64,000 nt of DNA from Rhodospirillaceae bacterium. GTDB taxonomy: Bacteria > Pseudomonadota > Alphaproteobacteria > UBA8366 > Aestuariispiraceae. The notes under the pieces were generated by a model. That model had not been told where the DNA came from. It was given only the letters and a program-made list of their open reading frames with translations, and did no database searches. Within the stretch, counting starts at the first letter, position 1, and the number at the start of each line of letters is the position of its first letter. The stretch lies in the NCBI GenBank assembly GCA_002709955.1, contig PAQY01000006.1, forward strand, positions 1 through 64,000, read 5' to 3'. The position numbers were made by a program, and so were the translations under genes. Below are positions 45,210 to 64,000 of the stretch, piece after piece.

Positions 45210-46622
45210 TTACGCCGAGTAGTACATCGCAAATTCCATTGGATGGGTGGTGTGTTCCACACGATAGACATCCTCCATCTTCAGCGCGATATAGCTGTCG
45301 ATCTGGTCATCGGTGAAGACATCGCCCTTCTTCAGGAAGGCCCGATCTTTGTCCAGGGATTCCAGCGCTTCACGCAGGGACCCGCAAACAGTCGGGATGT
45401 CTTTCAGTTCTTCCGGCGGCAGGTCGTACAGATCTTTATCCATCGGCTCACCCGGATGGATCTTGTTCTGAATGCCGTCCAGACCTGCCATCAGCATGGC
45501 CGTGAAGGCCAGGTATGGATTGGCCATCGCATCTGGGAAGCGGGCTTCCAGACGTTTACCGTTCGCACCGGCTTCGTAAGGAATACGAATGGAGGCGGAG
45601 CGGTTCCGTGCGGAATAGGCCAGCAACACAGGGGCTTCAAACCCTGGGATCAGACGCTTGTAGCTGTTGGTGGACGGGTTGGTGAAGGCATTCAGGGCCT
45701 TTGCATGTTTGATGATGCCGCCGATATAGAACAGGCATTCTTCAGACAGATCGGCATAGCCGCTGCCTGCAAACATGTTCTTGCCATCTTTCCAGATCGA
45801 CTGGTGGGTGTGCATGCCAGATCCGTTGTCGCCAACGATTGGCTTGGGCATGAAGGTTGCCGTCTTGCCATATTGATGGGCGACCATGTGGGTTACGTAT
45901 TTATAGATCTGCATCTGGTCAGCGGTTTTGACCAGCGTGTTGTATTTCATGCCCAATTCGTGCTGGGACGGTGCCACTTCGTGGTGATGCTTTTCCATCG
46001 CCAGGCCCATGGACAACATGGTTGTTACCATTTCCGCACGCAGATCGGTTTCGCTGTCAACGGGAGGAACCGGGAAATAGCCGCCTTTGATGCTGGGGCG
46101 GTGGCCTGGATTGCCGCCGTCGAAATCTGCACCGGAATTGTAAGGGCCTTCGGTCGAGTCGATTTCGTAGGACATCTTCTCCATATTGATCGACCATTTC
46201 ACATCGTCGAATACGAAGAATTCTGCCTCAGGGCCAAAATACGCCGTGTCACCAATGCCGACGCTTTCCATATAGGCCAGGCCTTTTTTGGCAGTGGAGC
46301 GGGGGTCACGATCATATGGCTGGCCGGTTGATGGCTCCAGAATGTCACAGAAAAGAATCAACAGGGGCTGAACAGCAAAAGGGTCCATCACAGCGGATTC
46401 AGGATCCGGCATTAGAATCATATCGGATTCGTTGATGGCCTTCCAACCGGCGATGGACGAACCATCAAACATGATGCCGTCTTTGAAGATGCTTTCTTTA
46501 ATCGTGCTGACATGCTGGGCAGTGTGCTGCCACTTGCCGCGTGGATCCGTAAACCGGAAATCGACGAACTGAACGTCGTTTTCCTTGATCATTTCCATTA
46601 CTTTTTTCACTCCATCGGACAT
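45210..46622 (-). CDS. glnA: Glutamine synthetase type I
   Basis: GlnA makes glutamine from glutamate and ammonia with ATP. The 470-residue protein shows [21 protein letters not shown], the ATP region and [10 protein letters not shown]. The adenylylation tyrosine lies in DLYDLPPEE (about residue 398), so GlnE control is expected. glnB lies upstream on the same strand, and the sigma-54 promoter at 47148-47164 should drive both, matching control by nitrogen limitation. Confidence 0.98.
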
Positions 46623-46720
46623 GATCGTTTTTCCTCTCGATTTGTGTCTGATTGTTCCAAAAAACCTGATTGCCTAATTCACAGGGCGGTGAAATCCGTC
46701 CCGCGCGGCAAGCAGGAATG

Positions 46721-47089
<369 letters not shown>

Positions 47090-47091
47090 TT

Positions 47092-47122
47092 AGCGACGCG
47101 AAACACGTCGCAGAGTCTCTGC
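47092..47122 (-). other. Two adjacent hairpins in the glnB leader
   Basis: GCGACG/CGTCGC (47093-47111) and GCAGAG/CTCTGC (47110-47122) can fold next to each other in the transcribed leader, 33-63 bases before the glnB start. Their role is not known. Confidence 0.3.
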
Positions 47123-47147
47123 GGCTCTGTCCATTCAAACCGGTTAC

Positions 47148-47164
47148 AGCACTTGCCGTGCCAA
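47148..47164 (-). promoter_or_regulatory. Sigma-54 promoter of glnB-glnA
   Basis: On the minus strand the sequence TTGGCACGGCAAGTGCT matches the RpoN consensus (YTGGCACGRNNNTTGCW) at all but one position. The -24 GG and -12 GC are both present with the right spacing. Transcription would start near 47137, about 78 bases before the glnB ATG. An NtrC site was not identified by eye. Confidence 0.85.
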
Positions 47165-47409
47165 GCCGCGCGAATAAGAAATATAGTGTAATATCAATTT
47201 GTTATTTCATGCAAACGGGGTTTTCCTAATGGTGTTATTGTATATAAATTAGTCGTTTGCCTAATTTTTAATCAGTATATCCGATCTCAAATATGACGGT
47301 TTCGGATATATTCTTAAATGCTGTGCCGTCGATTCCGTTTTCCAGATCGGTTCAGGATGATAGAACAACTTAGATCCTTCGTATCGCTTAAAAGAGGAAA
47401 CACTCAATA
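47165..47409. other. AT-rich intergenic region before ilvD
   Basis: The stretch is AT-rich from about 47175 to 47330 and should hold the ilvD promoter on the plus strand and the enhancer area of glnBA on the minus strand. A 30-codon frame from 47318 ends on the ilvD start (TAATG), but it has no ribosome binding site and no run of branched-chain codons. Confidence 0.4.
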
Positions 47410-49125
47410 ATGACCATCGATAAATCAAAATTGCCCAGCCGCCATGTTTCTGTTGGTCCGTCCAGCGCGCCCCATCGGTCTTATTACTATGCCATGGGCA
47501 TGACCGAAGAAGAAATCGCCCTGCCTTTTGTTGGGGTGGCAACATGCTGGAACGAGGCGGCACCCTGTAACATTTCGCTGTCGCGTCAGGCACAGTCGGT
47601 CAAGACAGGCGTGAAGGCCGCGAATGGCACGCCGCGTGAATTCACCACAATTACCGTGACCGATGGGATTGCGATGGGCCATGCGGGTATGTTCTCCTCA
47701 CTGCCCAGCCGCGATTTGATCGCCGACTCGGTTGAATTGACGATGCGCGGGCATTGCTATGACGCGCTGGTCGGTCTGGCCGGGTGCGATAAATCGCTGC
47801 CAGGCATGATGATGTCGATGATCCGCTTGAACGTGCCCTCTGTCTTTATCTATGGCGGGTCGATCCTGCCGGGCCGCTATAAAGGCCGTGACCTGACCGT
47901 CCAGGATGTGTTTGAGGCCGTGGGCCAGTTCTCATCGGGTCAGATCGATGCGGAAGAATTGCATGGGATCGAATGTGCGGCCTGTCCGTCCGCCGGGTCG
48001 TGCGGTGGTCAGTTCACCGCCAATACCATGGCCTGTGTGTCGGAAGCCATTGGCCTGGCCCTGCCGGGATCAGCAGGCGCGCCAGCCCCGTATGAAAGCC
48101 GCGATGCCTGGTGTGAGGCATCGGGTAAGGCGGTGATGAATTGCCTGGAAAAGAACATCCGCCCGCGTGACATCGTTACCCGCAAATCGCTGGAAAATGC
48201 TGCGCGCGTGGTTGCGGCCTCTGGCGGGTCGACCAATGCCGGGCTGCACCTGCCAGCCATGGCCCATGAATGTGGCATTGATTTTGACCTGAATGATGTG
48301 ACGGAGATCTTCAAGTCCACGCCCTATATCGCCGATCTGAAGCCGGGTGGAAAATACGTCGCCAAGGATCTGTTTGAAATTGGTGGTGTGGAAATCATCA
48401 TGAAGGCGCTGCTGGATGGCGGCTATCTGCATGGCGATTGCATCACGGTAACGGGCAAGACGATTGCGGAAAATCTGGCTGATGTCGTATTCCCGACGGA
48501 TCAGGACATTGTGCGCACGACCGACAATCCCCTCACCAAGACAGGCGGCGTTGTTGGCCTGCGGGGCAATCTGGCACCAGAAGGGGCGATTGTGAAGGTT
48601 GCCGGTATGAAGAACCAGAAATTCTCCGGTCCTGCCCGCTGTTTCGACAGTGAAGAAGAAGCCTATGCTGCAGTGGCAGAGCGGAATTATAAAGAAGGTG
48701 AAGTTCTGGTCATCCGCTATGAAGGGCCCAAGGGCGGCCCTGGCATGCGCGAAATGCTGGCAACGACGGCAGCGATTTACGGTCAGGGAATGGGCGACAA
48801 GGTTGCCCTTATCACCGATGGCCGGTTCTCTGGCGCGACGCGGGGATTCTGCGTCGGGCATGTCGGGCCGGAAGCCGCCGTGGGCGGGCCGATTGGTCTG
48901 GTGCGCGATGGCGATATCATCACGCTGGATGCGGTTGCCGGGACGATGGAAGTCGACCTGACCGAAGATCAGTTGGAGGAACGCCGTAAGGACTGGAAGC
49001 CCCGCGCTCATAACTATCAGTCGGGTGCCTTGTGGAAGTTCGCCCAGACTGTCGGTCCGGCTGTGAAAGGGGCTGTAACCCATCCGGGCGGTAAGGCAGA
49101 AACCCACGTTTACGCGGATATCTGA
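47410..49125 (+). CDS. ilvD: Dihydroxy-acid dehydratase
   Basis: IlvD dehydrates dihydroxy acids in valine/isoleucine synthesis and binds an Fe-S cluster. At 571 residues it has [14 protein letters not shown] (cluster Cys), [19 protein letters not shown] (second Cys region), and [15 protein letters not shown]-like [16 protein letters not shown] near the end. AAAAGAGGAAAC precedes the ATG. The ureohydrolase gene begins on its stop codon (TGATG). Confidence 0.95.
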
Positions 49126-50099
49126 TGATGGAAGACACACCGCTGACCGAGCCGCCGTCGGGTCTGACCCGAACCTTTCTGGATTTGCCCTATGCGGGGG
49201 ATCTGGACGGCTTGGTCGCGGATGTGGCGCTGTTGGGAATTCCCTATGGAATGCCCTACAGCATGCAGGCACGGATCAATGATCAATGCCTGGCCCCGGA
49301 TGCGCTGCGCCGCCATGGGATTTTTGATTCCAGCTATACATTGACCCATTACGATTGGGATCTGGGTGGGCCCTTGCTGGATGACCGGCCCGTGCGGCTG
49401 GTGGATTGCGGCAATGTCACTGCGGAAATGAGCGACCCCAAAATTCATTACCAGCGGGCCGAAGCGGCCGTTCGCAAGATTTTGAAGGCCGGGGCAACCC
49501 CCATCGTGATTGGCGGGGATCATGGTATTCCGATCCCGGTCATGCGGGCCCTGGATGCCACGGGGCATGACAAGATCACCCTGGTGCATATCGATGCGCA
49601 TCTGGATTGGCGTGACGAGGTGAATGGCGAGCATGATGGCTATTCCAGCCCGATACGTCGTGCCTCGGAACTGCCCTGGATTGATAAGATCATTCAGATC
49701 GGCATGCGGGGTATTGGCAGCGCCAGACAGCAGGAAATCGATGACGCCCGGGCCTATGGCGCGGATTTGATCACGGCCTATGAAATGCACGCGATGGGAA
49801 TTCCCGCCGTGTTGGACCGCATTCCGGATGGCGGTCCCTATTATCTGACAATTGATGCCGATGGTCTGGACCCAACCATCATGCCGGGCGTTCTGGCCCC
49901 CACGCCGGGCGGGCTGACCTGGTTACAGACCTATGACCTGATCCATGGTCTGGTCAAAAAGGGCCGTGTTTTGGGGATGGATTTGGTGGAAATGACGCCC
50001 AGCTATGATGTGGGCAAGCTGACCATGGCCCATGCGGAGCGTCTGATCTGTAACTTTATCGGGGCAACGGTGCGCGCTGGATACTACGACAAGCGTTAG
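49125..50099 (+). CDS. Ureohydrolase (agmatinase-like)
   Basis: The 324-residue protein is an arginase/agmatinase-fold enzyme. The dimanganese ligands are present: GGDHG (His), HIDAHLDW (Asp, His, Asp), and DADGLDP (Asp, Asp). Substrates in the family include agmatine, guanidinobutyrate and proclavaminate; DWRDE after DAHLD differs from typical agmatinases, so the substrate is open. The start overlaps the ilvD stop, and its end overlaps the convergent manC-like gene by 4 bases. Confidence 0.85.
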   Translation: MMEDTPLTEPPSGLTRTFLDLPYAGDLDGLVADVALLGIPYGMPYSMQARINDQCLAPDALRRHGIFDSSYTLTHYDWDLGGPLLDDRPVRLVDCGNVTAEMSDPKIHYQRAEAAVRKILKAGATPIVIGGDHGIPIPVMRALDATGHDKITLVHIDAHLDWRDEVNGEHDGYSSPIRRASELPWIDKIIQIGMRGIGSARQQEIDDARAYGADLITAYEMHAMGIPAVLDRIPDGGPYYLTIDADGLDPTIMPGVLAPTPGGLTWLQTYDLIHGLVKKGRVLGMDLVEMTPSYDVGKLTMAHAERLICNFIGATVRAGYYDKR

Positions 50100-51532
50100 A
50101 CTATCCGTCCGTAGACGTCATCCAGCCGTTCAATATCGTCCTCTTCCACATAATCACCAACCTGTACTTCAATCATATGCAAGGGCTCTGTGCCTTTGTT
50201 TTCCAGGCGGTGTGTCGCGCCAATGCTGACATAGGTGCTTTGATTGCGGGTCAGGACGGTTTCTATCCCGTCGATGGTGACATGGGCCGTGCCTTTGACC
50301 ACAATCCAATGTTCGGATCGCTGGCGGTGACGTTGCAAGGACAGGCGACCGCCTGGATGCACCACGATGCGTTTCGCGCGAAAACCGTCATCCCGGTCGA
50401 TATCCTGATATGTCCCCCAGGGGCGCGATACTTTGCGATGCAAATCAGCCTCAGGCGCATTCAGGGCGGACAGGTCTGATACCAGGTCTTTCACCTCTCC
50501 AGCCCGGGCTAGGGGCGTGACCAGAACGGCATCGGCGGTAGAAACCACGACCATATCCTGAAGACCAATGCCGGTCAGCAGGCGGCCATCGTCGGATCGG
50601 AAATAACTGTTTCTGGTATCGCGTAGCTGCACCTTGCCCTGTGTTGCATTGCCATTGGAATCCTTGTCCGCAAAGCCATGCAATGCCTCCCAGGAACCAA
50701 GGTCGCTCCAGCCCATATCGGCGGCAACGGTGGCGGCCTGATCGGTTTTTTCCATGACCGCGACATCGATGGCGATGGACGGGCTGGCGGCGAAGGTCGC
50801 TGTATCCAGTCGCGTGAAGCCAAGATCCAGGGAAGCATTGGCAAGCGCTGCCTGTGACTGGGCCAGAACATCAGGCGCGAAGGCTTCCAAAGCCTTCAGC
50901 ATGACCGATGCGCGAAACATGAACATGCCGCTGTTCCAGCCATAACTGCCGGTGTCCAAATAGCGTTGCGCAGTTGCTGTATCGGGCTTTTCAACAAAGG
51001 CAGCGACCGATTCAATACCCGGCAGGTCCGATATGGGATCGCCATGTCGGATATAGCCATATCCCGTCTCAGGACGGGTAGGCGTGATGGAAAAGGTGAC
51101 GATGTAACCGGCGCTGGCCCCTTGAATGGCTGTTGCAACGGCGGACTGAAAGGCATCATCGTCGGCGATATGATGATCGGACGGGAATATTCCAAGAATC
51201 GGATCGGCACCCCGCTGCAGTGCCGCCAGACAGGCCAGGGCGACAGCCGGGGCCGTGTTGCGCCCCACCGGCTCTAATATAAGGGGGGCGGGCGTAACGC
51301 CGATTTCCGACAATTGCTGGCGGATCAGGAATCGGTGGTCATCATTTGCAATAACGATTGGATCTTCTGCATTGGGCAGGCGGGCCAGTCGCTGGGCGGT
51401 TTGCTGCAGCAGGGATCCATCCCCGATCAAAGGCAGCAACTGTTTCGGATAGGTGCGCCGCGACAGGGGCCACAGGCGCGTGCCGGATCCACCAGACAGG
51501 ATCACAGGGCAAAAGGCGGTGTCATTGAGCAC
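50096..51532 (-). CDS. manC: Mannose-1-phosphate guanylyltransferase/mannose-6-phosphate isomerase
   Basis: The 478-residue bifunctional enzyme makes GDP-mannose. The N-terminal nucleotidyltransferase domain has LSGGSGTRLWPLSRRTYPKQ and FVEKPD. The C-terminal cupin isomerase domain (about 345-478) has RPWGTYQ and the metal/substrate run QRHRQRSEHWIVVKG. GDP-mannose is a precursor for exopolysaccharide or O-antigen sugars; no glycosyltransferase genes are in the window. Confidence 0.93.
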   Translation of the reverse strand: MLNDTAFCPVILSGGSGTRLWPLSRRTYPKQLLPLIGDGSLLQQTAQRLARLPNAEDPIVIANDDHRFLIRQQLSEIGVTPAPLILEPVGRNTAPAVALACLAALQRGADPILGIFPSDHHIADDDAFQSAVATAIQGASAGYIVTFSITPTRPETGYGYIRHGDPISDLPGIESVAAFVEKPDTATAQRYLDTGSYGWNSGMFMFRASVMLKALEAFAPDVLAQSQAALANASLDLGFTRLDTATFAASPSIAIDVAVMEKTDQAATVAADMGWSDLGSWEALHGFADKDSNGNATQGKVQLRDTRNSYFRSDDGRLLTGIGLQDMVVVSTADAVLVTPLARAGEVKDLVSDLSALNAPEADLHRKVSRPWGTYQDIDRDDGFRAKRIVVHPGGRLSLQRHRQRSEHWIVVKGTAHVTIDGIETVLTRNQSTYVSIGATHRLENKGTEPLHMIEVQVGDYVEEDDIERLDDVYGRIV

Positions 51533-51596
51533 AGAATATCCTTTTCATAGGCCAACCGAGCAAACTGTACTAAGCCGCATATCCGATTGAAAGCAA

Positions 51597-52574
51597 TTAG
51601 ACCTTTGGGGGCAGCGGGCGACGTTCCGCACTGGGGGGATGCCCAAACCGGCCAGAGAAACTGCGGCTGAAATGCGCGGCAGAACTGAATCCGCTGCGAA
51701 AGGCGATTTCGATAATGGGAAGGTCGGTCTGGCGCAAAAGATGTCGGGAACGGTCAAGTCGCAAACCCCGGTAATAGGCAGCAGGCGTCGTCTTCAACCA
51801 CTTGCGAAACTGGCGCTCTAATTCGCGGGGGGAGATACCGGCCGCATCCGCGAAATCCGACATGGGGCGGGATTCTTCCAGGGCCGCCTCCATCTTTTCA
51901 ATCGCGCGGATCAGGCGGGGATGGAAGCCGCGCAACCGCTCCCGCAGGGCCAGTCTTTGCGAATCGCCGGGCTCTCGAATTCGGGAATAGACGAATTCGT
52001 CTGCGGCCTTTGTAGCCAGATCTTCGCCATGGCGGTGGCGCAACAGGCTTAACATCATATCCAGCCCGGATGTGCCCCCCGCCGCAGTAAACCGATCCCG
52101 GTCGACCACGAACAGGTCCTGGGTGAAGGCCACGCGCGGGAAATGTTCAATATGGCTTTCCAGCATCTCCCAATGCGCCGTGGCGCGATACCCATCCAGC
52201 AATCCGGCACTGGCCAGAATAAAGGTACCATTATCCAGCGCCCCCAGGGCGGTGCCAAAGCTGGACCAACGACGCAGTAAGGCCAAGATATCGGGCGTTG
52301 CCAGCTTTTCATGGTCATAGCTGGCAACAACGATCAATGTCGGCAGTCGCTGGGCGGAGGCGAGGGAGTGATCCACCCCGACACTGACCCCATTGGCGGC
52401 CTGCACCGGTCCCCCATCACGGGAAATCAGCACCCATTCATACAACGGCTTGTCTGACAGCCAATTGGCCATGCGCAGCGGATCCAGCATGGCCGAAAAG
52501 GCCAGCATCGAAAATTTGGGCAGCAGCAGGAAGCCGATGCGCTCTGTCTTATTACTTGGGGGCAGATGAAACAT
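51597..52574 (-). CDS. cdhR: GlxA-family AraC-type regulator of carnitine genes (CdhR-like)
   Basis: The 325-residue protein has an N-terminal DJ-1/PfpI-like domain (about 10-175: IGFLLLPKFSMLAFSAMLDPLR) without an obvious catalytic triad and a C-terminal AraC DNA-binding domain (about 225-315, two HTHs: ISPRELERQFRKW, AFRSGFSSAAHFSRSF). This is the build of CdhR and GbdR regulators of Pseudomonas carnitine and betaine catabolism. It is divergent from the carnitine genes and shares a 127-bp control region with two direct repeats (52587-52626). Its function as carnitine sensor is inferred from position. Confidence 0.8.
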   Translation of the reverse strand: MFHLPPSNKTERIGFLLLPKFSMLAFSAMLDPLRMANWLSDKPLYEWVLISRDGGPVQAANGVSVGVDHSLASAQRLPTLIVVASYDHEKLATPDILALLRRWSSFGTALGALDNGTFILASAGLLDGYRATAHWEMLESHIEHFPRVAFTQDLFVVDRDRFTAAGGTSGLDMMLSLLRHRHGEDLATKAADEFVYSRIREPGDSQRLALRERLRGFHPRLIRAIEKMEAALEESRPMSDFADAAGISPRELERQFRKWLKTTPAAYYRGLRLDRSRHLLRQTDLPIIEIAFRSGFSSAAHFSRSFSGRFGHPPSAERRPLPPKV

Positions 52575-52586
52575 GGCGTCAAAATA

Positions 52587-52626
52587 AAGTCGGAAATCAT
52601 CATGCTCAAGTCGGAAATTGATATGC
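52587..52626. promoter_or_regulatory. AraC-type operator: two direct repeats 21 bp apart
   Basis: AAGTCGGAAAT nnnn ATGC occurs at 52587-52605 and again at 52608-52626, with a shift of exactly 21 bases (two DNA turns). Fifteen of 19 positions are identical. It lies 12 bp before the cdhR start and about 76 bp before the cdhC start. This is the layout of an AraC-family activator that also controls its own gene. A 6-bp dyad (CGCAGC/GCTGCG, 52638-52653) follows. Confidence 0.75.
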
Positions 52627-52701
52627 AGACCTTTTGCCGCAGCGTAGGCTGCGTTTCAATTGCCCAAAGGCTGATCTGATATAAAGGGAGGCGAAAGTCG
52701 A

Positions 52702-53601
52702 ATGTCCGTTATGAACACTGAAGTCGTTATTACCTGTGCCGTTACCGGGTCCGGCGCGACCCAGGACAAGCATCCTGATTTGCCCAAGACACCAAAGCAG
52801 ATTGCGGAAAGCTCAATTGAGGCTGCGAAAGCCGGGGCGGCCATCGTTCATATCCATGTGCGCGAAGATGACGGCACGCCCTGCCGCTCTGTCGCGAAAT
52901 TCAAAGAAGTCTGTGACCGCGTGCGCGACAGTGGCGTTGATGTGGTGCTGAACCTGACGGCGGGCATGGGCGGCGACCTGACACTGGGCCCGCCAGATGA
53001 TCCGATGGCGATTGATCAGGCCGCAACCGACATGGCCCCCTGGTCTGAACGCTTGGACCATGTACGGGAATGTCTGCCGGAAATCTGTACGCTGGACTGT
53101 GGGTCGATGAATTTTGGGAATGGCAATTATGTCATGACCAACACGCCCCCCATGCTGCGCGCCCTGGCCCAGGGCATGAAAGATATTGGTGTGAAGCCGG
53201 AAGTCGAAGTGTTCGATACTGGTCATCTGTGGCTGGCAAAACAGTTGCACCAGGAAGGCCTGTTGGATGATCCGCCGCTGTTTCAATTGTGCTTGGGCAT
53301 TCCCTATGGCGCGGAAGCCAATACAACGGCGATGAAGGCGATGGCCGATATGATGCCCGCTGGGGCGAATTGGTCCGGATTCGGGATCAGCCGCATGCAA
53401 ATGCCAATGGTGGCCCAGGCGGTCCTGTTGGGCGGCAATGTTCGGGTCGGGTTGGAAGATAATCTGTATCTGGAACGCGGCGTCATGGCGACCAATGCAC
53501 AACTTGTGGAAAAGGCTGCCAAAATCATCGAACTGATGGGCGCAAAGGTCTGCACACCAGAAGAAGCCCGCAAGAAATTCTCCCTTAAGAAGTTGGTCTG
53601 A
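52702..53601 (+). CDS. cdhC: BKACE enzyme: dehydrocarnitine cleavage enzyme
   Basis: The 299-residue protein belongs to the beta-keto acid cleavage (DUF849) family. It begins with [12 protein letters not shown] and has the zinc histidines in HIHVREDDG (HxH region) and the catalytic Glu region [11 protein letters not shown]. The segments [20 protein letters not shown] and [11 protein letters not shown] match the carnitine branch (CdhC of Pseudomonas), which converts dehydrocarnitine and acetyl-CoA to betainyl-CoA and acetoacetate. GGGAGG precedes the ATG. The dehydrogenase that makes its substrate is the next gene. Confidence 0.85.
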
Positions 53602-53615
53602 GGAGCATCCCCATC

Positions 53616-54593
53616 ATGCGTGAGATTAAAACGATTGGCCTGGTTGGCGGTGGTGTCATTGGGGGTGGCTGGGCTGCGCGATGCCTGGCGAATGGCTATG
53701 ATGTGATTGCCTATGACCCGGCACCCAATGCCGAAGCGATTATTCGGGGCAAGGTTGCCAATGCCTGGCCCGCCCTGACCAAAGTCGGCTTGCACAAAAC
53801 CGCATCCCAGGATCGGTTGCGGATGGCATCCAGCATTGAAGAGGTGGCACAAGCCGCTGATCTGATTCAGGAATCCGTGCCGGAACGGTTGGATTTGAAA
53901 ATCAAAATTCACAGCCAGATCGATGCGGCGGCCGCACCGGATGTGCTGATCTGTTCGTCAACGTCCGGCCTGCTGCCCAGCGATTTTCAGGCGGAATGCC
54001 AGCATCCTGAACGGGTTCTGGTCGGCCATCCCTTCAATCCGGTCTACCTGTTGCCCTTGGTTGAAATTGTGGGTGGCAAGAAGACCAGTATGGAGAACCG
54101 GACCCGCGCAGGTGCTTTCTATGAATCCATCGGAATGCATCCAATCCAATGTCGCACCGAAGTGGAAGGTTTTCTGTCGGACCGATTGCAGGAAGCCCTA
54201 TGGCGTGAAAACCTGCATATGCTGGCCGAAGGTCATGCAACGACCCAGGAAATGGATGACGCGATCATCTATGGCCCCGGCCTGCGCTGGGCCTTCATGG
54301 GGGTCAACCGTACCTTTGCCCTGGCCGGTGGAGATGATGGCATGCGCCATTTCATGCACCAATTCGGCCCGGCCCTGAAGCTGCCCTGGACCAAACTGGT
54401 CGCCCCGGAACTGACGGATGAACTGATCGATACGGTTGTCGAAGGCACCGACGCGCAATTGGCAAACACGACAATTCCAGAGATGGAAAAGCTGCGCGAC
54501 AATTGCCTGATTTCGATCATGGAAGCCTTGTCTGAATACCGCGAAGGGGCAGGCGAAGTCCTGCTGCGCATCCGCAAGGCGAATGCACAGTGA
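53616..54593 (+). CDS. cdhA: L-carnitine 3-dehydrogenase
   Basis: The 325-residue protein is of the hydroxyacyl-CoA dehydrogenase superfamily. The NAD motif is GLVGGGVIGGGW, and GHPFNPVYLLPLVEIVGG is the catalytic His region. It has the family's DIDxx-like ending and no fused thioesterase domain, which some rhizobial forms carry. It oxidises L-carnitine to 3-dehydrocarnitine, the substrate of the upstream BKACE enzyme; the genes are 14 bases apart. Confidence 0.88.
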   Translation: MREIKTIGLVGGGVIGGGWAARCLANGYDVIAYDPAPNAEAIIRGKVANAWPALTKVGLHKTASQDRLRMASSIEEVAQAADLIQESVPERLDLKIKIHSQIDAAAAPDVLICSSTSGLLPSDFQAECQHPERVLVGHPFNPVYLLPLVEIVGGKKTSMENRTRAGAFYESIGMHPIQCRTEVEGFLSDRLQEALWRENLHMLAEGHATTQEMDDAIIYGPGLRWAFMGVNRTFALAGGDDGMRHFMHQFGPALKLPWTKLVAPELTDELIDTVVEGTDAQLANTTIPEMEKLRDNCLISIMEALSEYREGAGEVLLRIRKANAQ

Positions 54594-54635
54594 CAGTCCT
54601 GTCACCTTGGACCACTTGTACAAACCGTCCCATTC

Positions 54636-54787
54636 TCATCCTGAGGAGGTGCGGTCGCACCGTCTCGAAGGATGGGCTGTAAGGGCTTTGCTTGCAGTGG
54701 GCTCACCCTTCGAGACGCTGCGCTCCTCAGGGTGAGGAGATATTTGGTTAATGCACCGTCACCCCGGACGTGATCCGGGGTCCAGGG
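54636..54787. repeat. Composite repeat (hairpin plus GTCAYCCCGG unit), left copy
   Basis: Left arm 54636-54674 (TCATCCTGAGGAG, then GTCTCGAAGGATG) and right arm 54703-54738 (CCCTTCGAGACG, then CTCCTCAGGGTGA) pair as a long imperfect inverted repeat. At 54758 begins the second part (GTCACCCCGGACGTGATCC and on). Both parts recur in the same order at 59022-59190. The unit looks like a REP/palindromic element of alphaproteobacteria. Confidence 0.8.
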
Positions 54788-54861
54788 CGGGGGGCGCGGT
54801 TGGCTCTTTAGTCCCATCTGCGCGGGACAGATTGAAATGCATATAAGAGAGGAAACAAGCC

Positions 54862-56022
54862 ATGGATTTTGGCGTCAGTGAAGAGCAGACCCTGATCATT
54901 GAAACCGCACGCCGGTTCGTCGAAGAAGAACTCTATCCCTATGAGGAAGAGGTTGAACGGACCGATAAGGTGCGCCCGGAATTGGGGGAGCAAATCAAAC
55001 AACGCTCCATCGAACTGGGTCTTTATGCCGCCAATATGCCTGAAGATGTCGGCGGGGGCGGGCTGGATACACTGACCATGTGCATGTTGGATCGCACTTT
55101 AGGGCGTGCCAGTATGGCGCTGAATTATATAGTTTATCGACCTTCCAACGTGTTGCAGGCCTGTGTTGGGGAGCAGCGGGAAAAGTATCTGTATCCGGCC
55201 TGTCGCGGCGAGAAGGTGGACTGTTTCGCAATGACGGAGCCCGGTGCCGGGTCCGATGTGCGCGGTATGAAATGCACGGCGAAGCGGGACGGCACGGATT
55301 TCGTCATCAATGGCGTTAAACATTTCATCAGCCATGCCGATTGGGCTGATTTCGTGATCCTGATGGCTGCAACGGGCGAAGAAGACAGCGCCCGGGGCAA
55401 GCGCAAGAAGATCACGACATTCCTGGTCGACAAGGGAACGCCAGGATTTGTGATGCGGCCCGGCTATAACAACGTTTCCCACCGGGGCTATCACAATTTC
55501 ATCCTGGAATTCGATGATTGCCGCATCCCGGAAAGCCAGGTCCTGGGGGAGGTTGATAAGGGCTTTGATGTCGCCAATGACTGGCTGGGCGCGACACGGT
55601 TGCAGGTGGCCTCCCTGTGTCTGGGGCGCTGTGACCGGGCGATGGAACATTCGCTGGACTGGGCGGCAAACCGCGAACAATTTGGCCAGAAAATTTCCAA
55701 ATTTCAGGGGGTTTCCTTCAAACTGGCAGATATGAAGACCAAGCTGAAGGCAGCGGAACTGCTGACCTATGAGGCGGCCTGGAAATACGATAATGACTGT
55801 ATGGAGGACATGGATGCGGCCATTGCCAAACTGTCCGCCACGGAGGCCCTGGCCTTTATCGCCGATGAAGCGATCCAGATTCATGGCGGTATGGGGGTGA
55901 TGTCCGAATTGCCGCTGGAGCGGATCTGGCGTGATGCCCGTATTGAGCGGATTTGGGAGGGCACCAGCGAAATTCAGCGGCACATCATCTCCCGCGCGCT
56001 GTTACGCCCACTCGGCGGTTAG
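54862..56022 (+). CDS. Acyl-CoA dehydrogenase (possible gamma-butyrobetainyl-CoA dehydrogenase)
   Basis: The 386-residue protein is a typical FAD acyl-CoA dehydrogenase: N-terminal helical domain, MTEPGAGSDV (FAD and substrate), a central beta domain, and the C-terminal helical domain with QIHGGMGVMSELPLERIWRD and the last part IERIWEGTSEIQRHII. The catalytic base would be Glu in the EGTSE loop. The context (CaiD-like hydratase, acyl-CoA synthetase, carnitine enzymes) suggests a CaiA-like role on betainyl acyl-CoA esters. It is separated from cdhA by repeats, so it may be transcribed on its own. Confidence 0.85.
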   Translation: MDFGVSEEQTLIIETARRFVEEELYPYEEEVERTDKVRPELGEQIKQRSIELGLYAANMPEDVGGGGLDTLTMCMLDRTLGRASMALNYIVYRPSNVLQACVGEQREKYLYPACRGEKVDCFAMTEPGAGSDVRGMKCTAKRDGTDFVINGVKHFISHADWADFVILMAATGEEDSARGKRKKITTFLVDKGTPGFVMRPGYNNVSHRGYHNFILEFDDCRIPESQVLGEVDKGFDVANDWLGATRLQVASLCLGRCDRAMEHSLDWAANREQFGQKISKFQGVSFKLADMKTKLKAAELLTYEAAWKYDNDCMEDMDAAIAKLSATEALAFIADEAIQIHGGMGVMSELPLERIWRDARIERIWEGTSEIQRHIISRALLRPLGG

Positions 56023-56035
56023 AGGATTACAGCGT

Positions 56036-58099
56036 ATGGCTCAAGGGTTGGACCGGTTGTTGCGCCCCCGCAGCATCGCAGTGATCGGGGGACGGGAAGC
56101 GGAAAAATGTGTCGTGGAATGCTTGCGCATCGGCTTTCCGGGCAAAATCTATCCGATCAGCAAATCCCGACCCAGCATGGCGGGAATTCCATGTCTTGCC
56201 AGTCTGGACGACTTACCGGAAGCACCGGATGCGACCTTCATCGCAATCCCGGCGGAACCGACCATAGAGGCGGTGCGACAGCTCTCTGCCATGGGGGCAG
56301 GCGGAGTGGTCCTGTATGCCAGCGGGTTTGCGGAAACCGGCGCTGTCGGTCTGGACCGTCAAAAGCGCTTGTTGGAAGCCGCGGGTACGATGGGCATGTT
56401 GGGGCCCAATTGCTATGGCACGGTAAATTATCTGGAAGGGGTCGCCCTGTGGCCCGACGACCATGGCGGCCATCGCCTGGATCGCGGTGTCGCGCTGGTC
56501 AGCCAAAGCGGCAATGTCGCGATCAGCCTGTCGATGCAGGAGCGCGGCGTGCCCGTTGCGCAATTGGCGGCCTTGGGCAATCAGGCGAAAGATGGCGTGC
56601 CCCAGATTTTGCAATCGCTGCTGCGCGATGATCGTATCACGGCAATTGGTCTGTTCGTGGAAAGTGTCGGGGATATTCCGGGCTTTTGCGAGGCTGCGCG
56701 GGAGGCTGCGCGCAAGGGCATCCCAATCGTCGTTTTGAAGACAGGCAATTCAGAGGCCGCCGCGCGGGTCGCGCTGTCCCATACCAGTTCGATGACCGGC
56801 TCTTCTGCGGCCTTCAAGGCGCTGTGTGATCGCCTGGCAGTGGTGCGGGCGGAAACCCTGGCGCAATTGCTGGAATATCTGAAACTGTTCCACCTATTCC
56901 CGGGCCTGCCGGGCGACAGGCTGATGACGATGAGCTGTTCTGGTGGGGAGGCTGGCATCATGGCCGACATCGCCCATGAAATCGGCCTGCCCATGCCAGC
57001 CTTTTCCCCGTCGGCGCAGGAGGGGTTGAATGCCGTGCTGGGCGATAAGGTGGCGATCGATAACCCACTGGATTATCACACCTATATCTGGGGCAATCAG
57101 GCTTCGATGACCGCCTGTTTCTCAGCGGCCCTGGCCGATGATTTTGATGTCGGTATCCTGGCACTGGATACACCGATCCGCGAAGGGTTGGATCTGTTTG
57201 GCTGGAAAGAGGCGGAAGCGGCGATCATTGCCGCTGCACAGGCAACAGGCCGCCCAACCATTGTCGCCTCCAGCCTGTCCGAGAACATGCCGCGTCGTTT
57301 GCAACAGTCCTTTCTGGCCGCGGGCATTGTGCCCCTTCAGGGATTTGATGATGCGCTAAAGGCGGTGAAGGCGGCAGCCTGGTATGGCAGGGCACGGCAG
57401 CGCTCTTTGGAACAGGGCCCGGTCCTCAGTGCCACTCAGGTCAATACCGGACCGGCGCGCATGCTGGATGAATGGCGCGCCAAGAAGGTTCTATCCGCCC
57501 AGGGACTATCGGTGCCACAAGGCGTCCTGGTTGCGTCGGAGACGGAGGCCGTCGCGGCAGCGGAGGCGCTGGGCTATCCTGTCGTGGTCAAGGCCTGTTC
57601 TGTGACGCTGGCCCATAAGACAGAGGCGGGCGGGGTTGCCCTGAATTTGATTGACGGTCAGGCCGTGTCGGATGCTGTGACCCGAATGGACGGGCTGGCC
57701 CCGCATTTCATTGTCGAAAAAATGGCCCAGAATGCGGTCTGCGAAATCATTTTAGGCATGACCCGCGATCCCCAGATTGGCCCCATGCTGATGATCGGAG
57801 CGGGCGGCATTTTGGCGGAACTGATCGGGGATGCGACGGTGCTGCTGTTGCCCGCGACACAGGCAGATGTTGAACGGGCGCTGGATCGCCTGCTGGTCGC
57901 AAAGCTGTTGGCCGGCTTCCGGGGCAGGCCCGCCGGGGACCGCCAGGCGCTGATCGATGCAATCATGGCGGTTGCCGGGTTTATTGAACAGAACAAGGAT
58001 CGGCTGGTGGAAATGGACATCAATCCGCTGATCGTCCTGCCCCAGGGGCAGGGCGTGGTGGCGGTGGATGCCGTAATCCGCTGGACCGACGCATCTTAA
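56036..58099 (+). CDS. NDP-forming acyl-CoA synthetase (fused subunits)
   Basis: The 687-residue protein is an acyl-CoA synthetase of the ADP-forming type. It has a CoA-binding domain (about 1-130, LDRLLRPRSIAVIGGREAEK), the succinyl-CoA-ligase-like domain (150-310; MLGPNCYGTVNY and VALSHTSSMTGSSAAF, with the phospho-histidine), and an ATP-grasp domain at about 470-687 (AKKVLSAQGLSVPQG, VVKACSVTLAHKTEAGG). The likely start is ATG 56036 with AGAGGAT upstream. The reaction is acid + CoA + ATP to acyl-CoA + ADP + Pi, and it can run backwards. It stands where caiC (AMP-forming) and caiB would be expected. Confidence 0.85.
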   Translation: MAQGLDRLLRPRSIAVIGGREAEKCVVECLRIGFPGKIYPISKSRPSMAGIPCLASLDDLPEAPDATFIAIPAEPTIEAVRQLSAMGAGGVVLYASGFAETGAVGLDRQKRLLEAAGTMGMLGPNCYGTVNYLEGVALWPDDHGGHRLDRGVALVSQSGNVAISLSMQERGVPVAQLAALGNQAKDGVPQILQSLLRDDRITAIGLFVESVGDIPGFCEAAREAARKGIPIVVLKTGNSEAAARVALSHTSSMTGSSAAFKALCDRLAVVRAETLAQLLEYLKLFHLFPGLPGDRLMTMSCSGGEAGIMADIAHEIGLPMPAFSPSAQEGLNAVLGDKVAIDNPLDYHTYIWGNQASMTACFSAALADDFDVGILALDTPIREGLDLFGWKEAEAAIIAAAQATGRPTIVASSLSENMPRRLQQSFLAAGIVPLQGFDDALKAVKAAAWYGRARQRSLEQGPVLSATQVNTGPARMLDEWRAKKVLSAQGLSVPQGVLVASETEAVAAAEALGYPVVVKACSVTLAHKTEAGGVALNLIDGQAVSDAVTRMDGLAPHFIVEKMAQNAVCEIILGMTRDPQIGPMLMIGAGGILAELIGDATVLLLPATQADVERALDRLLVAKLLAGFRGRPAGDRQALIDAIMAVAGFIEQNKDRLVEMDINPLIVLPQGQGVVAVDAVIRWTDAS

Positions 58100-58113
58100 G
58101 GAAGGAATACGCT

Positions 58114-58896
58114 ATGTCAGAACCAATCAAAACCTATCGCAATGGCCGTGTGCTGGAGGTCACGATGGACCGCCCCAAGGCCAATGCCATTGATGCCGTA
58201 ACCAGCCGGATCATGGGGGATGTCTTCGCTGCTTATCGCGATGATCCAGAATTGCGCTGTGCCATCCTGACCGGCGCGGGAGAGAAATTCTTTTGCCCCG
58301 GCTGGGATTTGAAGGCAGCAGCAGAGGGGGAGGCTCCCTCATCGGACTATGGCGTCGGCGGTTTTGGCGGATTGCAGGAACTGCCCAATATGAACAAGCC
58401 AGTGATCGCGGCAGTCAACGGTATCGCCTTCGGGGGCGGTTTTGAAATTATGCTGTCTTGCGACATCATCATCGCTGCAGAGCATGCGACCTTCGCGCTG
58501 CCGGAAATCCGATCCGGCGTGATTGCCGATGCCGCAACGATCAAACTGCCGCGCCGCATCCCCTATCATGTGGCGATGGAAATGCTGTTCACCGGGCGCG
58601 TTCTGGACGCGGAGGAGGCCGCCCGTTGGGGCTTTGTGAATGAGGTCGTGCCCGCCGATAAGCTGATGGAACGGGCGCGGGAAAAGGCAGAATTGCTGGC
58701 CGATGGCCCGCCTTTGGTTTTTGCTGCCATCAAGGAAACCCTGCGCGCCACGGAAGCCATGGGCTTTCAGGACGCCCTGGACCAGCTGAATAAAGAAAAG
58801 CTGCCCACCATCCAGAAACTGTACCATTCCGAAGACCAACTGGAAGGCGCCCGCGCCTTCGCAGAAAAGCGCAAACCGGTCTGGAAAGGCAGATAG
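58114..58896 (+). CDS. caiD: Carnitinyl-CoA dehydratase (crotonobetainyl-CoA hydratase)
   Basis: The 260-residue crotonase closely resembles E. coli CaiD: RPKANAIDA, GAGEKFF then GWDLKAAAEGEAP, KPVIAAVNG then AFGGGFE, and the end FAEKRKPVWKGR. It would interconvert L-carnitinyl-CoA and crotonobetainyl-CoA. It starts 14 bases after the acyl-CoA synthetase gene, so the two share a transcript. Confidence 0.88.
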   Translation: MSEPIKTYRNGRVLEVTMDRPKANAIDAVTSRIMGDVFAAYRDDPELRCAILTGAGEKFFCPGWDLKAAAEGEAPSSDYGVGGFGGLQELPNMNKPVIAAVNGIAFGGGFEIMLSCDIIIAAEHATFALPEIRSGVIADAATIKLPRRIPYHVAMEMLFTGRVLDAEEAARWGFVNEVVPADKLMERAREKAELLADGPPLVFAAIKETLRATEAMGFQDALDQLNKEKLPTIQKLYHSEDQLEGARAFAEKRKPVWKGR

Positions 58897-59021
58897 ACAC
58901 CAGTTTGACGGTTTCACACCCCCTTTCGTCATCCAGGACGGGAAGAATAAACGCAAAGAGCGCAGAGAAGACGCAAAGGACGCTGACGGACTGGTGTGTT
59001 AGGCATAACTTCCGCCCCATT

Positions 59022-59122
59022 CTCATCCTGAGGAGGCGCGACAGCGCCGTCTCGAAGGATGCGCGGTAGGTTCGGTGCTTGCAGAAAGGCACCCTTCGAG
59101 ACGCTACGCTCCTCAGGGTGAG
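59022..59122. repeat. Composite repeat hairpin, right copy
   Basis: Left arm 59022-59061 and right arm 59090-59122 repeat the hairpin at 54636-54738 in direct orientation (TCATCCTGAGGAG ... CTTCGAGACG ... CTCCTCAGGGTGA). Only the right arm is seen again, in part, at 59536-59564. Confidence 0.8.
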
Positions 59123-59144
59123 GCGTCGTTTGTCTTGAAACATT

Positions 59145-59520
59145 GTCATCCCGGACTTGATCCGGGATCCAGGGCAGTAGGTGCGATTGGTGCGTGCGGT
59201 ACTGGGCTCCCGCCTTCGCGGGAGAGACGAGCTTGTACTTACCTTTGCGCCCTTTGCGTTCCTCCGCGCCCTTTGCGTTCCTCACTGTCGTCATCCCGGA
59301 CGTGATCCGGGATCCAGGGCGGCAGGTGCGATTGGTGCGTGTGGCCCTGGGCTCCCGCCTTCGCGGGAGAGACGAGCTTGTATTTGCCTTCGCGCTCTCT
59401 GCGTTCCTCCGCGCCCTTTGCGTTCCGCACTTTCGTCATCCCGGACTTGATCCGGGATCCAGGGCAGCAGGAGCGATTGGTGCGGGTCGCCCTGAACACC
59501 CGCCAGCAGGGTGACGGGGA
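59145..59520. repeat. Tandem array, 145-bp period, about 2.6 units
   Basis: GTCATCCCGGAC begins at 59145, 59290 and 59435, exactly 145 bp apart. Units one and two match over their whole length with few changes (GTGCGATTGGTGCGTG, then CTCCCGCCTTCGCGGGAGAG and TTCCTCCGCGCCCTTTGCG). The third is cut off after about 85 bases. Each unit contains two small palindromes. Confidence 0.85.
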
Positions 59521-59723
59521 GGGGGATGCGTGCAGCGAGACGCTGCGCGCGTCAGGGTGAGGGGGGGGCTGCGCCGTTGCACGCCGCGGCGGTGGTTATA
59601 TGACGTGGAATTTATGTGCGAAAAACACTGCTGCTGGCTTGTTCCTGCGGCTGAATCGCGCTATTTGGACGCTTCCGCGCGCCCACCCTGTATTCAGGAA
59701 AAATTTGGGAAAGACCTGCCCCT

Positions 59724-61292
<1,569 letters not shown>

Positions 61293-61498
61293 GGAACGCT
61301 TAATCCAGTATCCTTGATTTGCACTGCAATTATGAATTTTTTCTTTCAGGGTGCTGCGCGCATTCATGGTGCTGTACAGCAAATTTTCGCAGACATAGGA
61401 TAGTGCGCCCCGTCTCATGTGAGAGGGGGCTGGCTTGTTTGTGCCCGATTTTAAGCGGGGTACGGCAAGCGATTCTCTCTCTGTGAAAGAAATACCCG

Positions 61499-62329
61499 AT
61501 GACGACGATCACAACGAAAGATGGCGTTTCCCTGTTTTACAAAGATTGGGGCCCCAAAACGGCCCAACCGATCTTCTTTCATCATGGCTGGCCGCTGTGC
61601 AGTGACGATTGGGATGCGCAGATGCTGTTCTTCCTGGCCAAGGGCTATCGTGTCATTGCCTATGATCGCCGCGGTCATGGCCGCTCCAACCAGGTCTGGG
61701 ATGGGCATGATATGGATCACTATGCAGCGGATGTTGATGCCGTAGTGACCCATCTGGATCTGAAAAATGCGGTCCATATTGGTCATTCGACCGGTGGTGG
61801 GGAGGCAGTCTGCTATGTTGCCCGCCATGGCAAGGGTCGGGTGGCGAAGTTAGTCATTATTGGCGCGGTTCCGCCAATCATGGTGAAGACACCGGAATAT
61901 CCAGATGGCTTGCCAATCGAGGTTTTCGATGGTTTCCGCAAAGCCTTGGCCGACAATCGCGCCCAGTTCTATGTCGACGTCCCGTCAGGCCCATTTTATG
62001 GGTATAACCGGCCCGAGGCTGTTGTGCATCAAGGCGTGATCCAGAATTGGTGGCGCCAGGGCATGATGGGCGGTGCCAAGGCGCATTACGATGGTATCAA
62101 GGCATTCTCGGAGACCGATTTCACCGCCGATCTGAAATCCGTTGACGTTCCAACGTTGGTCATGCACGGCGATGATGACCAGATTGTTCCCATCGCGGCT
62201 TCTGCCCTGTTGTCGGTGAAATTGCTGAAACAGGGGGTGCTGAAGGTCTATGAAGGGTATGACCACGGCATGTGCACATCCCATGCGGATGTCATCAACA
62301 CGGATCTGCTCGCCTTTATTGAAGGCTAA
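61499..62329 (+). CDS. Alpha/beta hydrolase, non-heme chloroperoxidase-like
   Basis: The 276-residue protein belongs to the cofactor-free haloperoxidase/esterase group. It has FFHHGWPLCSDDWDAQM, YDRRGHGRSNQ, the nucleophile elbow GHSTGGGEAV, the acid in HGDDDQIVPI and His in YDHGMCTSHAD. Such enzymes hydrolyse esters and, in vitro, form peracids. The physiological substrate is unknown. It follows guaA by 206 bp. Confidence 0.85.
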   Translation: MTTITTKDGVSLFYKDWGPKTAQPIFFHHGWPLCSDDWDAQMLFFLAKGYRVIAYDRRGHGRSNQVWDGHDMDHYAADVDAVVTHLDLKNAVHIGHSTGGGEAVCYVARHGKGRVAKLVIIGAVPPIMVKTPEYPDGLPIEVFDGFRKALADNRAQFYVDVPSGPFYGYNRPEAVVHQGVIQNWWRQGMMGGAKAHYDGIKAFSETDFTADLKSVDVPTLVMHGDDDQIVPIAASALLSVKLLKQGVLKVYEGYDHGMCTSHADVINTDLLAFIEG

Positions 62330-62772
62330 GGGGTTTGCCAGCAGGATTCGGCGCGACTCTTTGATCCGTCGTCGTCATTCTGACGGGGGTGTTTCAAGGG
62401 GGCGCGCCGATCTTGGGTGGGTAACCAGAAGTAAGGTAAGGACCGACCCTGACGGAGCGGATCTGAGTGTGCGCATGGTGACGCCGCAGCCCGATCGACA
62501 AACGCCCGAAGCGAACCCGCAGCGCATCGGCCCTTGCGGAGTGCTTTGCACATATTGGGCATGATTGCAGCAATTTTGTAGGGCAGGGGACAGCAGGATG
62601 TCACCGATGACCAGCCCAGCGTCGTGATCTGAAAGCCATAGAGTCTCCAAGCCTAGTATTTGGTCGCAATGCTCACTACGATATTCAAAATCATGCAAGG
62701 GAGTTGGAATGGAGAAGTATCTGGATGCAGGGGAAATTAAGACTTAGAGGCATCAGCGGGGGTGATTAGATT
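62330..62772. other. 443-bp stretch without a supported gene
   Basis: No convincing gene. A 107-codon frame on the minus strand (62375-62698) and frames on the plus strand have no clear start signal or recognised family. The segment may be a decayed remnant or the edge of inserted DNA. Confidence 0.4.
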
Positions 62773-63849
62773 ATGAACGACCAATCACCACCAGAGCAAC
62801 CAAAGACCAAAGCCTTCGACCTCCTCGCGTCGGTGGCCGCTTTTGCACGCAAACACGCTATCCCGCTAAACGATCCGCTGTTGGTCGAGCGCTTCATCGC
62901 GGACGCAGCGCCTAAACTGAAGGAAGCGTTGGCCGATCGGACGCTGATCTATGGCTCGCGAACTGAGCGCCTATTTGAGGCGACGGTCCTTAGCCTGGGT
63001 CGCTTTCGATTGCTGAAGATCGAGGATGTTGGTCGCGTCCATGCCGCTGAGACCTGCCGCGCGCCGGATTTCCGGGTAGTGCTCGACGATGGCGAGCAGT
63101 GGCTGGTTGAGGTCAAGAACGTCCGAAGCAAGGAGCCGTTCAAGCAGAAGACGCAGATGTCCGCCGCGTATCTGGCCTCACTACAGACATATGCAGAAAT
63201 GGTTGGCACGCCGTTGAAGCTGGCGATATTCTGGTCGCTCTGGAACATCTGGACAGTCATTTCACCGGATCGCTTCCGTCGTCCAAACGGTTGCCTGCGC
63301 GTTACGATGAAGGATGCGGTTCTCGCCAACGAGTCGGGAAGGCTTGGCGAGGTGATCATCATGACCAAGCCACCGCTGCGACTCGTGCTCGGAGCGGCGA
63401 CCGACATGCCACATTCGTTGAGCCCTGAGGGGCTTGCAAACTTTATCGTCGGCTCTGCGAAACTCTACAGCGGCGCGGTGGAGTTGACTGATCTAAAGGA
63501 TCGCAAGCTCGCGGCGGTGCTTCTAATGCACGGTGAGTGGTCTACACATGGCCCGCTGGCGGTCACCGATGGCGGCGAGTTCGTGGGTGTCGAATTTGTC
63601 GCGACGCCGGAAGAGCCATCCGATCAGGGCTGGGAAGGTATAGGCTTGGCTAGTCGCATTTTTAGCCGGTTCTTCGCCAAGCAGACCGTCGATGGTGACC
63701 AGGTCATTCAGCTTCATGGCGAGGCGGCCCCCGAATGGTTCGCGCCGCTTTCGGATTGGGATTTCAAGAACAGCAAGCTGCCACTCTTGTTGGGACGGGT
63801 TCAGGCGCCGACTCCTGCCGATGGCGGTTTGGCGGAGCCAGTTGATTGA
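62773..63849 (+). CDS. PD-(D/E)XK nuclease-like protein of unknown role
   Basis: The 358-residue protein is not recognised as a whole. Near residue 90-115 it has APDFRVVLDDGEQWLVEVKN, a pattern like the PD-(D/E)XK nuclease core (Asp then Glu-x-Lys after one beta hairpin). This suggests a restriction-type or DNA-repair nuclease. The rest is alpha/beta with no clear domain. No methylase or partner is visible before the window ends. It could be a defence gene or a stray accessory gene. Confidence 0.5.
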   Translation: MNDQSPPEQPKTKAFDLLASVAAFARKHAIPLNDPLLVERFIADAAPKLKEALADRTLIYGSRTERLFEATVLSLGRFRLLKIEDVGRVHAAETCRAPDFRVVLDDGEQWLVEVKNVRSKEPFKQKTQMSAAYLASLQTYAEMVGTPLKLAIFWSLWNIWTVISPDRFRRPNGCLRVTMKDAVLANESGRLGEVIIMTKPPLRLVLGAATDMPHSLSPEGLANFIVGSAKLYSGAVELTDLKDRKLAAVLLMHGEWSTHGPLAVTDGGEFVGVEFVATPEEPSDQGWEGIGLASRIFSRFFAKQTVDGDQVIQLHGEAAPEWFAPLSDWDFKNSKLPLLLGRVQAPTPADGGLAEPVD

Positions 63850-63913
63850 TCAAGGCACTAGTTGGATGGTTGCAAGCACTTTTCGAGCGACGTGAACTGA
63901 ACTTGTCTTAAAA

Positions 63914-63933
63914 TTGAGAAGGCACCTTCTCGA
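63914..63933. terminator. Dyad after the nuclease-like gene
   Basis: GAGAAGG CA CCTTCTC is a near-perfect 7-bp dyad 64 bases after the stop at 63849. It may be a terminator or an operator; there is no T-run. Confidence 0.3.
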
Positions 63934-64000
63934 TTATCAACATGGACCTGCGTGCGTTTATCGAAGGATGAGGGGCTCATTTGAAGAATTCGGTGCGAAT

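Follow-up and report, generated by a model that had tools for sequence, protein, structure and literature searches.

Both carnitine and gamma-butyrobetaine are quaternary amines of wide occurrence, and several bacterial gene systems acting on them have been described. The enterobacterial cai operon encodes CaiA, CaiB, CaiC and CaiD, while the Pseudomonas genes for the conversion of carnitine to betaine specify CdhA, CdhC and the thioesterase CdhB, the latter encoded beside cdhA. In work by Bazire and colleagues in 2019, five enzymes reportedly catalyze the seven-step conversion of gamma-butyrobetaine to betaine in Sinorhizobium meliloti, the genes forming a conserved cluster and being conserved across classes; the same S. 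meliloti cluster is said to bring together a dehydrocarnitine cleavage enzyme, a dehydrogenase, a ligase and a hydratase as well. The butyrobetaine-to-betaine pathway type is not new, having been described for S. meliloti.

A passage in PMC12482172 credits Bazire et al. 2019 with the S. meliloti protein SM2011_c01638, a dual carnitine dehydrogenase/betainyl-CoA hydrolase, and names carnitine dehydrogenase, BKACE and DhcAB for the Pseudomonas carnitine-to-betaine genes. The same study is cited in passing in a section of PMC7305145, and 3-dehydrocarnitine and betainyl-CoA are mentioned for a Rhizobium model in an excerpt of PMC8751395. The bbu genes of Emergencia timonensis, according to a portion of PMC8364193, include two class III CoA transferases and eliminate trimethylamine. 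Searches of an incomplete open-access collection found no paper on a betainyl-CoA thioesterase with carnitine, an ADP-forming carnitinyl-CoA ligase or an Agrobacterium butyrobetaine acyl-CoA synthetase.

The window analyzed here, a 64,000-nucleotide stretch from a Rhodospirillaceae bacterium, carries a locus with the following features:

51597..52574, minus strand: AraC-type regulator, CdhR/GbdR-like, transcribed divergently from the operon (family scans)
52702..53601, plus strand: cdhC, BKACE, predicted to convert 3-dehydrocarnitine and acetyl-CoA to betainyl-CoA and acetoacetate
53616..54593, plus strand: cdhA, L-carnitine 3-dehydrogenase, 325 aa, lacking the C-terminal thioesterase domain that many relatives have
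54625..54803, plus strand: composite repeat located in the cdhA-acd gap, with a second copy in the same orientation at 59012-59190
54862..56022, plus strand: acd, acyl-CoA dehydrogenase, predicted to form crotonobetainyl-CoA from gamma-butyrobetainyl-CoA; the motif WEGTSEIQR carries the acid residue E366
56036..58099, plus strand: NDP-forming acyl-CoA ligase, 687 aa, with CoA_binding_2, Succ_CoA_lig and ATP-grasp_5 domains; H249, W352 and W390 conserved
58114..58896, plus strand: caiD-like hydratase, predicted to convert crotonobetainyl-CoA to L-carnitinyl-CoA; crotonase glutamates E111 and E131

ORFs and family scans bear out the positions and strands that an earlier note had given for the six genes, in which cdhR diverges from cdhC-cdhA-acd-ligase-caiD. 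The ligase ORF it reported is present but its start had to be corrected, ATG 56036 being most likely the true one rather than GTG 55931, which lies inside acd. The divergent cdhR-cdhC gap measures 127 bp and most of the operon is tightly packed (14 bp between cdhC and cdhA, 13 bp between acd and the ligase gene, 14 bp between the latter and caiD), the cdhA-acd gap of 268 bp being the one that holds the repeat element. The two direct repeat copies flank acd-ligase-caiD about 4387 bp apart and are 81-88% alike in pieces; a 15-base core of the composite repeat occurs 37 times in the window genome (reversed control, 0). Scans for promoters and terminators gave numbers close to chance (5 versus 3.2 and 8 versus 7.3, respectively).

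The cdh genes were recognized by their family models, with cdhA scoring above the cut-off of NCBIfam NF005471 “L-carnitine dehydrogenase” (453.4 versus 414 bits) and cdhC passing that of the BKACE family, Pfam PF05853 (327.7 bits). The regulator, of the AraC/DJ-1 type, was nearest to the GbdR model and fell below its cut-off (318.9 versus 480 bits). The dehydrogenase gene acd fell short of the CaiA model NCBIfam NF002885 (200.9 versus a cut-off of 540 bits) and passed no equivalog cut-off. Among the models listed, the best for the hydratase was that of CaiD, NF002936 (crotonobetainyl-CoA hydratase), again below the cut-off (341.8 versus 500 bits). All 91 aligned best hits of the hydratase keep both crotonase glutamates, E111 and E131. 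At the position of E366 in acd, 60 of 94 aligned best hits have Asp and 34 have Glu. As the earlier note had it, neither caiB nor caiC nor cdhB is seen in the locus. A simple cai operon was rejected, the CaiA and CaiD cut-offs being missed and CaiB and CaiC being absent from the locus, as was trimethylamine release of the bbu type, from which the gene content differs.

The ligase has the features of the ADP-forming class, i.e., CoA-binding, Succ_CoA_lig and ATP-grasp_5 domains plus the phosphohistidine (Pfam and alignment); its scores against the named models of ADP-forming ligases fall well short of their cut-offs. Its best solved match is DddX (7cm9, 238.5 bits), the next being an ADP-forming 4-hydroxybutyrate-CoA ligase. 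In the account given in parts of PMC8163506, DddX His292 is likely phosphorylated, W391 and F435 contact the sulfonium of DMSP-CoA through cation-pi interactions in the docked complex and are important in mutants, and Glu432 is the probable lyase base; the onium contacts there rest on docking plus mutants, with no bound structure. DddX His292, Trp391, Phe435 and Glu432 align with H249, W352, W390 and L387 of the window ligase, respectively (residue numbers in the pairwise alignment with DddX are 2 lower than in the W352/W390 numbering). Because the catalytic Glu432 is replaced by L387, DMSP lyase activity would not be expected, and the window ligase was rejected as a DMSP lyase.

H249 and W352 are invariant in all 19 rows of alignment A1 (the window plus 18 of 19 fetched regions, L046 with its truncated ligase being left out) and in all 80 loci fetched from public genomes, the best 80 of 586, three of which repeat rows of the alignment. 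Position 390 is aromatic in all rows and loci of the same two sets. The histidine is also kept in 15 ligase paralogs, 11 of them from other families and four from the window genome; none has an aromatic residue at position 390 (one has a gap there) or W at position 352. Site 352 alone is not specific, since 13 of the 15 paralogs carry Y or F there. In the ligase tree, for which 28 of 77 fetched loci were drawn at random, a branch with 100/100 support has all 15 on the same side. The alignment of two clade-conserved aromatics with the sulfonium-contact residues of DddX would fit an onium substrate, and a quaternary ammonium (onium) acid is a fair, though not conclusive, prediction for the ligase. 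The W352/W390 aromatic pair may serve as a sequence mark by which onium-acid ligases of the ADP-forming class can be recognized.

Conservation of the gene neighborhood was scored in 96 distinct ligase loci, made up of 19 regions from 18 relatives in the order plus 80 public-genome loci, minus three repeats (L064, L066 and L074). The public loci are the best 80 of 586 confirmed stretches; their record titles place them in Alpha-, Beta- and Gammaproteobacteria and Actinomycetota. The loci of both sets were chosen for closeness to the ligase and are therefore nonrandom. Some of the linkage counts are undercounts owing to contig ends and identity limits. In this set, including the best 80 of 586, acd adjoins the ligase gene in 93/96 loci, caiD in 90/96 and both in 88/96; cdhA or cdhC lies nearby in 62/96, and a CdhR homologue (at least 30% identity) occurs at most 12 kb from the ligase gene in 50/96. 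The earlier note held that the genes join a butyrobetaine-to-carnitine and a carnitine-to-betaine branch, a view it would have given up had the last three genes always stood apart from cdhCA in relatives. All five genes are found together in 49 of the 96 loci (best 80 of 586 included), in agreement with that claim. Neither cdhA nor cdhC was found nearby in 34/96, an upper figure given the contig ends and identity limits. In a control, no acd, cdhA, cdhC or cdhR match was found in the flanks of the 15 paralogs, a weak comparison with at most 1.5 kb a side; one paralog has a partial 40% hydratase match within the same flank limits.

Co-occurrence was also examined across 387 Alphaproteobacteria genomes of at least 90% completeness, six of them from the window's family, with thresholds of E ≤1e-150 for the ligase clade and E ≤1e-75 for cdhA. 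The ligase clade was present in 43 of the 387 and cdhA in 81. Of the ligase genomes, 41/43 had cdhA versus 40/344 others, the genomes being related, so that the Fisher p-values are not independent tests; leaving out the window's family, the figures were 35/37 versus 40/344, again among related genomes. A ligase of the window clade is missing from 40 cdhA genomes.

Two variants speak for acd-ligase-caiD being a separate unit, one that could supply cdhAC with carnitine. In G013, from the window's genus, the regulator is directly divergent from acd-ligase-caiD, while cdhC and a thioesterase-fused cdhA sit on a different contig; in G006, acd-ligase-caiD occurs without adjoining cdh genes. The gene order of the window recurs in two annotated Rhizobium plasmids, where the products include “carnitine 3-dehydrogenase” and “carnitinyl-CoA dehydratase” and genes for ABC transporters come next; at E 1e-120, the ligase matches 149 plasmid records. 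G004 has an additional cluster that is more distantly related (L063), comprising caiD, cdhA, cdhR, cdhC, four ABC-transporter genes, acd, the ligase gene and a gene for a beta-lactamase-family protein.

Overall, the operon probably converts gamma-butyrobetaine via carnitine to glycine betaine, a reading to which we assign a probability of roughly 0.8. Counting against it are the scores of acd, caiD and the ligase below the named cut-offs, the Y or F at site 352 in most paralogs, the docking basis of the DddX contacts, the 34/96 loci (best 80 of 586 included) with no cdhA or cdhC found nearby, the separate contigs of the two halves in G013, the 40 cdhA genomes lacking this ligase clade and the frequent Asp in place of Glu in acd. 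From genes, families, linkage and residue pattern, all read in the sequence, we infer the substrates and reaction direction of the operon's enzymes as follows. The ligase would be phosphorylated at H249 with ATP and form gamma-butyrobetainyl-CoA, W352 and W390 holding the trimethylammonium group (step 1); the acyl-CoA dehydrogenase would then yield crotonobetainyl-CoA (step 2) and the CaiD-like hydratase L-carnitinyl-CoA (step 3). Removal of CoA would give L-carnitine (step 4), which CdhA would oxidize to 3-dehydrocarnitine (step 5), and BKACE would convert this with acetyl-CoA to betainyl-CoA and acetoacetate (step 6). A second removal of CoA would release betaine (step 7). For each of steps 4 and 7 the candidates are the ligase, acting reversibly, or a hot-dog hydrolase encoded elsewhere.

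At these two steps the window lineage appears to differ from many of its relatives. Its 325-aa CdhA has no betainyl-CoA-releasing domain, and no thioesterase of the family of alignment A2 was found in window positions 46001-64000. In relatives, the placement of a hot-dog thioesterase varies: it may be fused to the C terminus of cdhA, stand separately after cdhA or just before acd, or lie elsewhere in the locus. Eight loci (L065, L068, L072, L073, L076, L077, L079 and L089) have two, one linked to cdhA (fused to it or following it) and the other immediately ahead of acd, which suggests that betainyl-CoA and carnitinyl-CoA may each have their own enzyme. Other loci, for example L069, L080, L086, L087, L094 and L106, have only the acd-linked thioesterase, and cdh genes were not found nearby. 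Among the 49 five-gene loci (from the set including the best 80 of 586), 12 are without a thioesterase, seven from the window's family plus L090, L120, L126, L127 and L142. L120 has a short-chain-dehydrogenase-like ORF (7038-7808) between an unfused cdhA and acd, the slot of the thioesterase elsewhere; a 20-locus cluster resembles this ORF by its first residues.

Genome-wide profile searches gave a strong CdhB-like thioesterase match in 14 of 19 genomes, those missing it being five of the window's genus. In these (G000, the window genome, and G009-G012, with G009 and G011 being drafts of 100 and 320 contigs), genome-wide alignment searches found weak family matches only, with best E values of 4.4e-18 to 1.5e-14. 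The earlier note's point that cdhB is missing holds and extends to the genome, in which no carnitine-linked thioesterase of the A2 family was found. The thioesterase matches of G004-G008 have mlaA and GGDEF genes as neighbors instead of carnitine genes, and the best match of the window genome (G000:C16:65730-66113; L175) is the hot-dog gene of the same slot. Comparison of L166-L175 indicated that the mlaA-hotdog-GGDEF slot is common to the family and that its hot-dog gene has strongly diverged in the window's genus, scoring 55 bits in the window genome versus 151-174 in G004-G008, with much of the family pattern lost.

At about even odds, the pathway is the same but the ligase activates only, and carnitinyl-CoA and betainyl-CoA are hydrolyzed by a thioesterase encoded elsewhere, such as the mlaA-GGDEF hot-dog gene or another general thioesterase. 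Seven 4HBT_2 hot-dog genes lie outside the locus in the window genome, and the common slot holds a better-matching thioesterase in G004-G008; against this, none of the window genome's hot-dog genes sits in the carnitine locus, and the slot gene has diverged as described. Six ligase-free genomes (G285, G206, G109, G195, G349 and G274) have a cdhC-cdhA pair without an adjoining thioesterase and each holds one elsewhere, likewise in favor of this reading. The six pairs come from 20 cdhA regions hand-picked mostly for a short open frame and no adjacent thioesterase match, three others of which had a thioesterase of this family: in the same frame as cdhA (G334), adjoining it (G174) or on the opposite strand (G176). 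Ligase relatives also coexist with dedicated hydrolases, because many of the ligase loci in the 96-locus set (best 80 of 586 included) carry a thioesterase and eight carry two.

Release by the ligase itself, with the recovery of ATP that the earlier note suggested, is the other candidate for these steps. Acting in reverse, it might free CoA from carnitinyl-CoA in step 4, a tentative proposal only slightly short of an even chance, whereas its doing so on betainyl-CoA in step 7 is doubtful. It is unlikely that the entire route dispenses with a thioesterase, one ligase spending ATP on gamma-butyrobetaine and regaining it from both carnitinyl-CoA and betainyl-CoA; if true, such a route would yield energy otherwise wasted by hydrolysis. 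The thioesterase family occurs in 160 of the 387 Alphaproteobacteria genomes, and at E 1e-35 it has no match in 3/41 cdhA genomes with the ligase (G000, G012 and G169) versus 7/40 without it. Given these two figures, nothing indicates that the ligase replaces the thioesterase, and loss of the latter was discarded as proof that the ligase recovers ATP; the step from a missing thioesterase to ligase-driven release would be a weak one. Because the number of linked thioesterases ranges from two to none among the loci, ATP recovery can be tested directly by comparing ligases of each kind.

It is improbable that a CaiB-like type III CoA-transferase encoded elsewhere moves CoA from betainyl-CoA or carnitinyl-CoA to gamma-butyrobetaine: the window genome has five type III CoA-transferases above the Pfam cut-off, but none in the locus. 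Degradation of an unrelated acid by an acd-ligase-caiD unit that merely neighbors cdhCA would accord with the 34/96 loci (best 80 of 586 included) in which cdhA and cdhC were not found nearby and with the repeat-bearing 268 bp between the window's two halves, yet is very improbable in view of the 49/96 loci of that set joining all five genes, the presence of cdhA in 41/43 ligase genomes, the crotonobetainyl-CoA hydratase model as best for the hydratase and an aromatic pair in the ligase that fits an onium group.

With conversion of gamma-butyrobetaine to betaine as the preferred reading, the locus suggests substrates for genes annotated as “acetate--CoA ligase family protein” and “acyl-CoA dehydrogenase family protein”. 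Compared with known systems, the window shares its ADP-forming ligase superfamily with DddX, the phosphohistidine and both onium-contact aromatics being aligned (parts of PMC8163506), but has L387 in place of the lyase base E432, and a CoA ester rather than cleavage would be expected. It resembles the E. timonensis bbu system in the predicted passage of gamma-butyrobetaine through a CoA ester and in an acyl-CoA-dehydrogenase-like protein and differs from it in gene content, bbu having two class III CoA transferases and trimethylamine elimination (a portion of PMC8364193). With the enterobacterial cai operon it has in common a hydratase nearest to the CaiD model and an acyl-CoA dehydrogenase; in contrast, its genes score below the CaiD and CaiA cut-offs, CaiB and CaiC are lacking and the predicted direction is oxidative. 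CdhA, CdhC and a CdhR/GbdR-type regulator are shared with the Pseudomonas cdh genes, whereas the window has no CdhB-type gene beside cdhA and adds a CoA-ester branch of acd, ligase and caiD.

A further likeness in content is to the S. meliloti pathway, with its carnitine dehydrogenase and conversion to glycine betaine, and the window has the cdhC, cdhA, acd, ligase and caiD order with divergent regulator of an S. meliloti-type operon, as compared with the Rhizobium plasmids, not S. meliloti itself. The S. meliloti dehydrogenase, however, also makes betaine from betainyl-CoA (a passage in PMC12482172), for which the window CdhA has no such domain. What is distinctive in the window lineage is that the thioesterase often present in relatives is not found beside these genes. 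In type, the pathway is both known and widespread, and the window lineage gives it a twist of its own.
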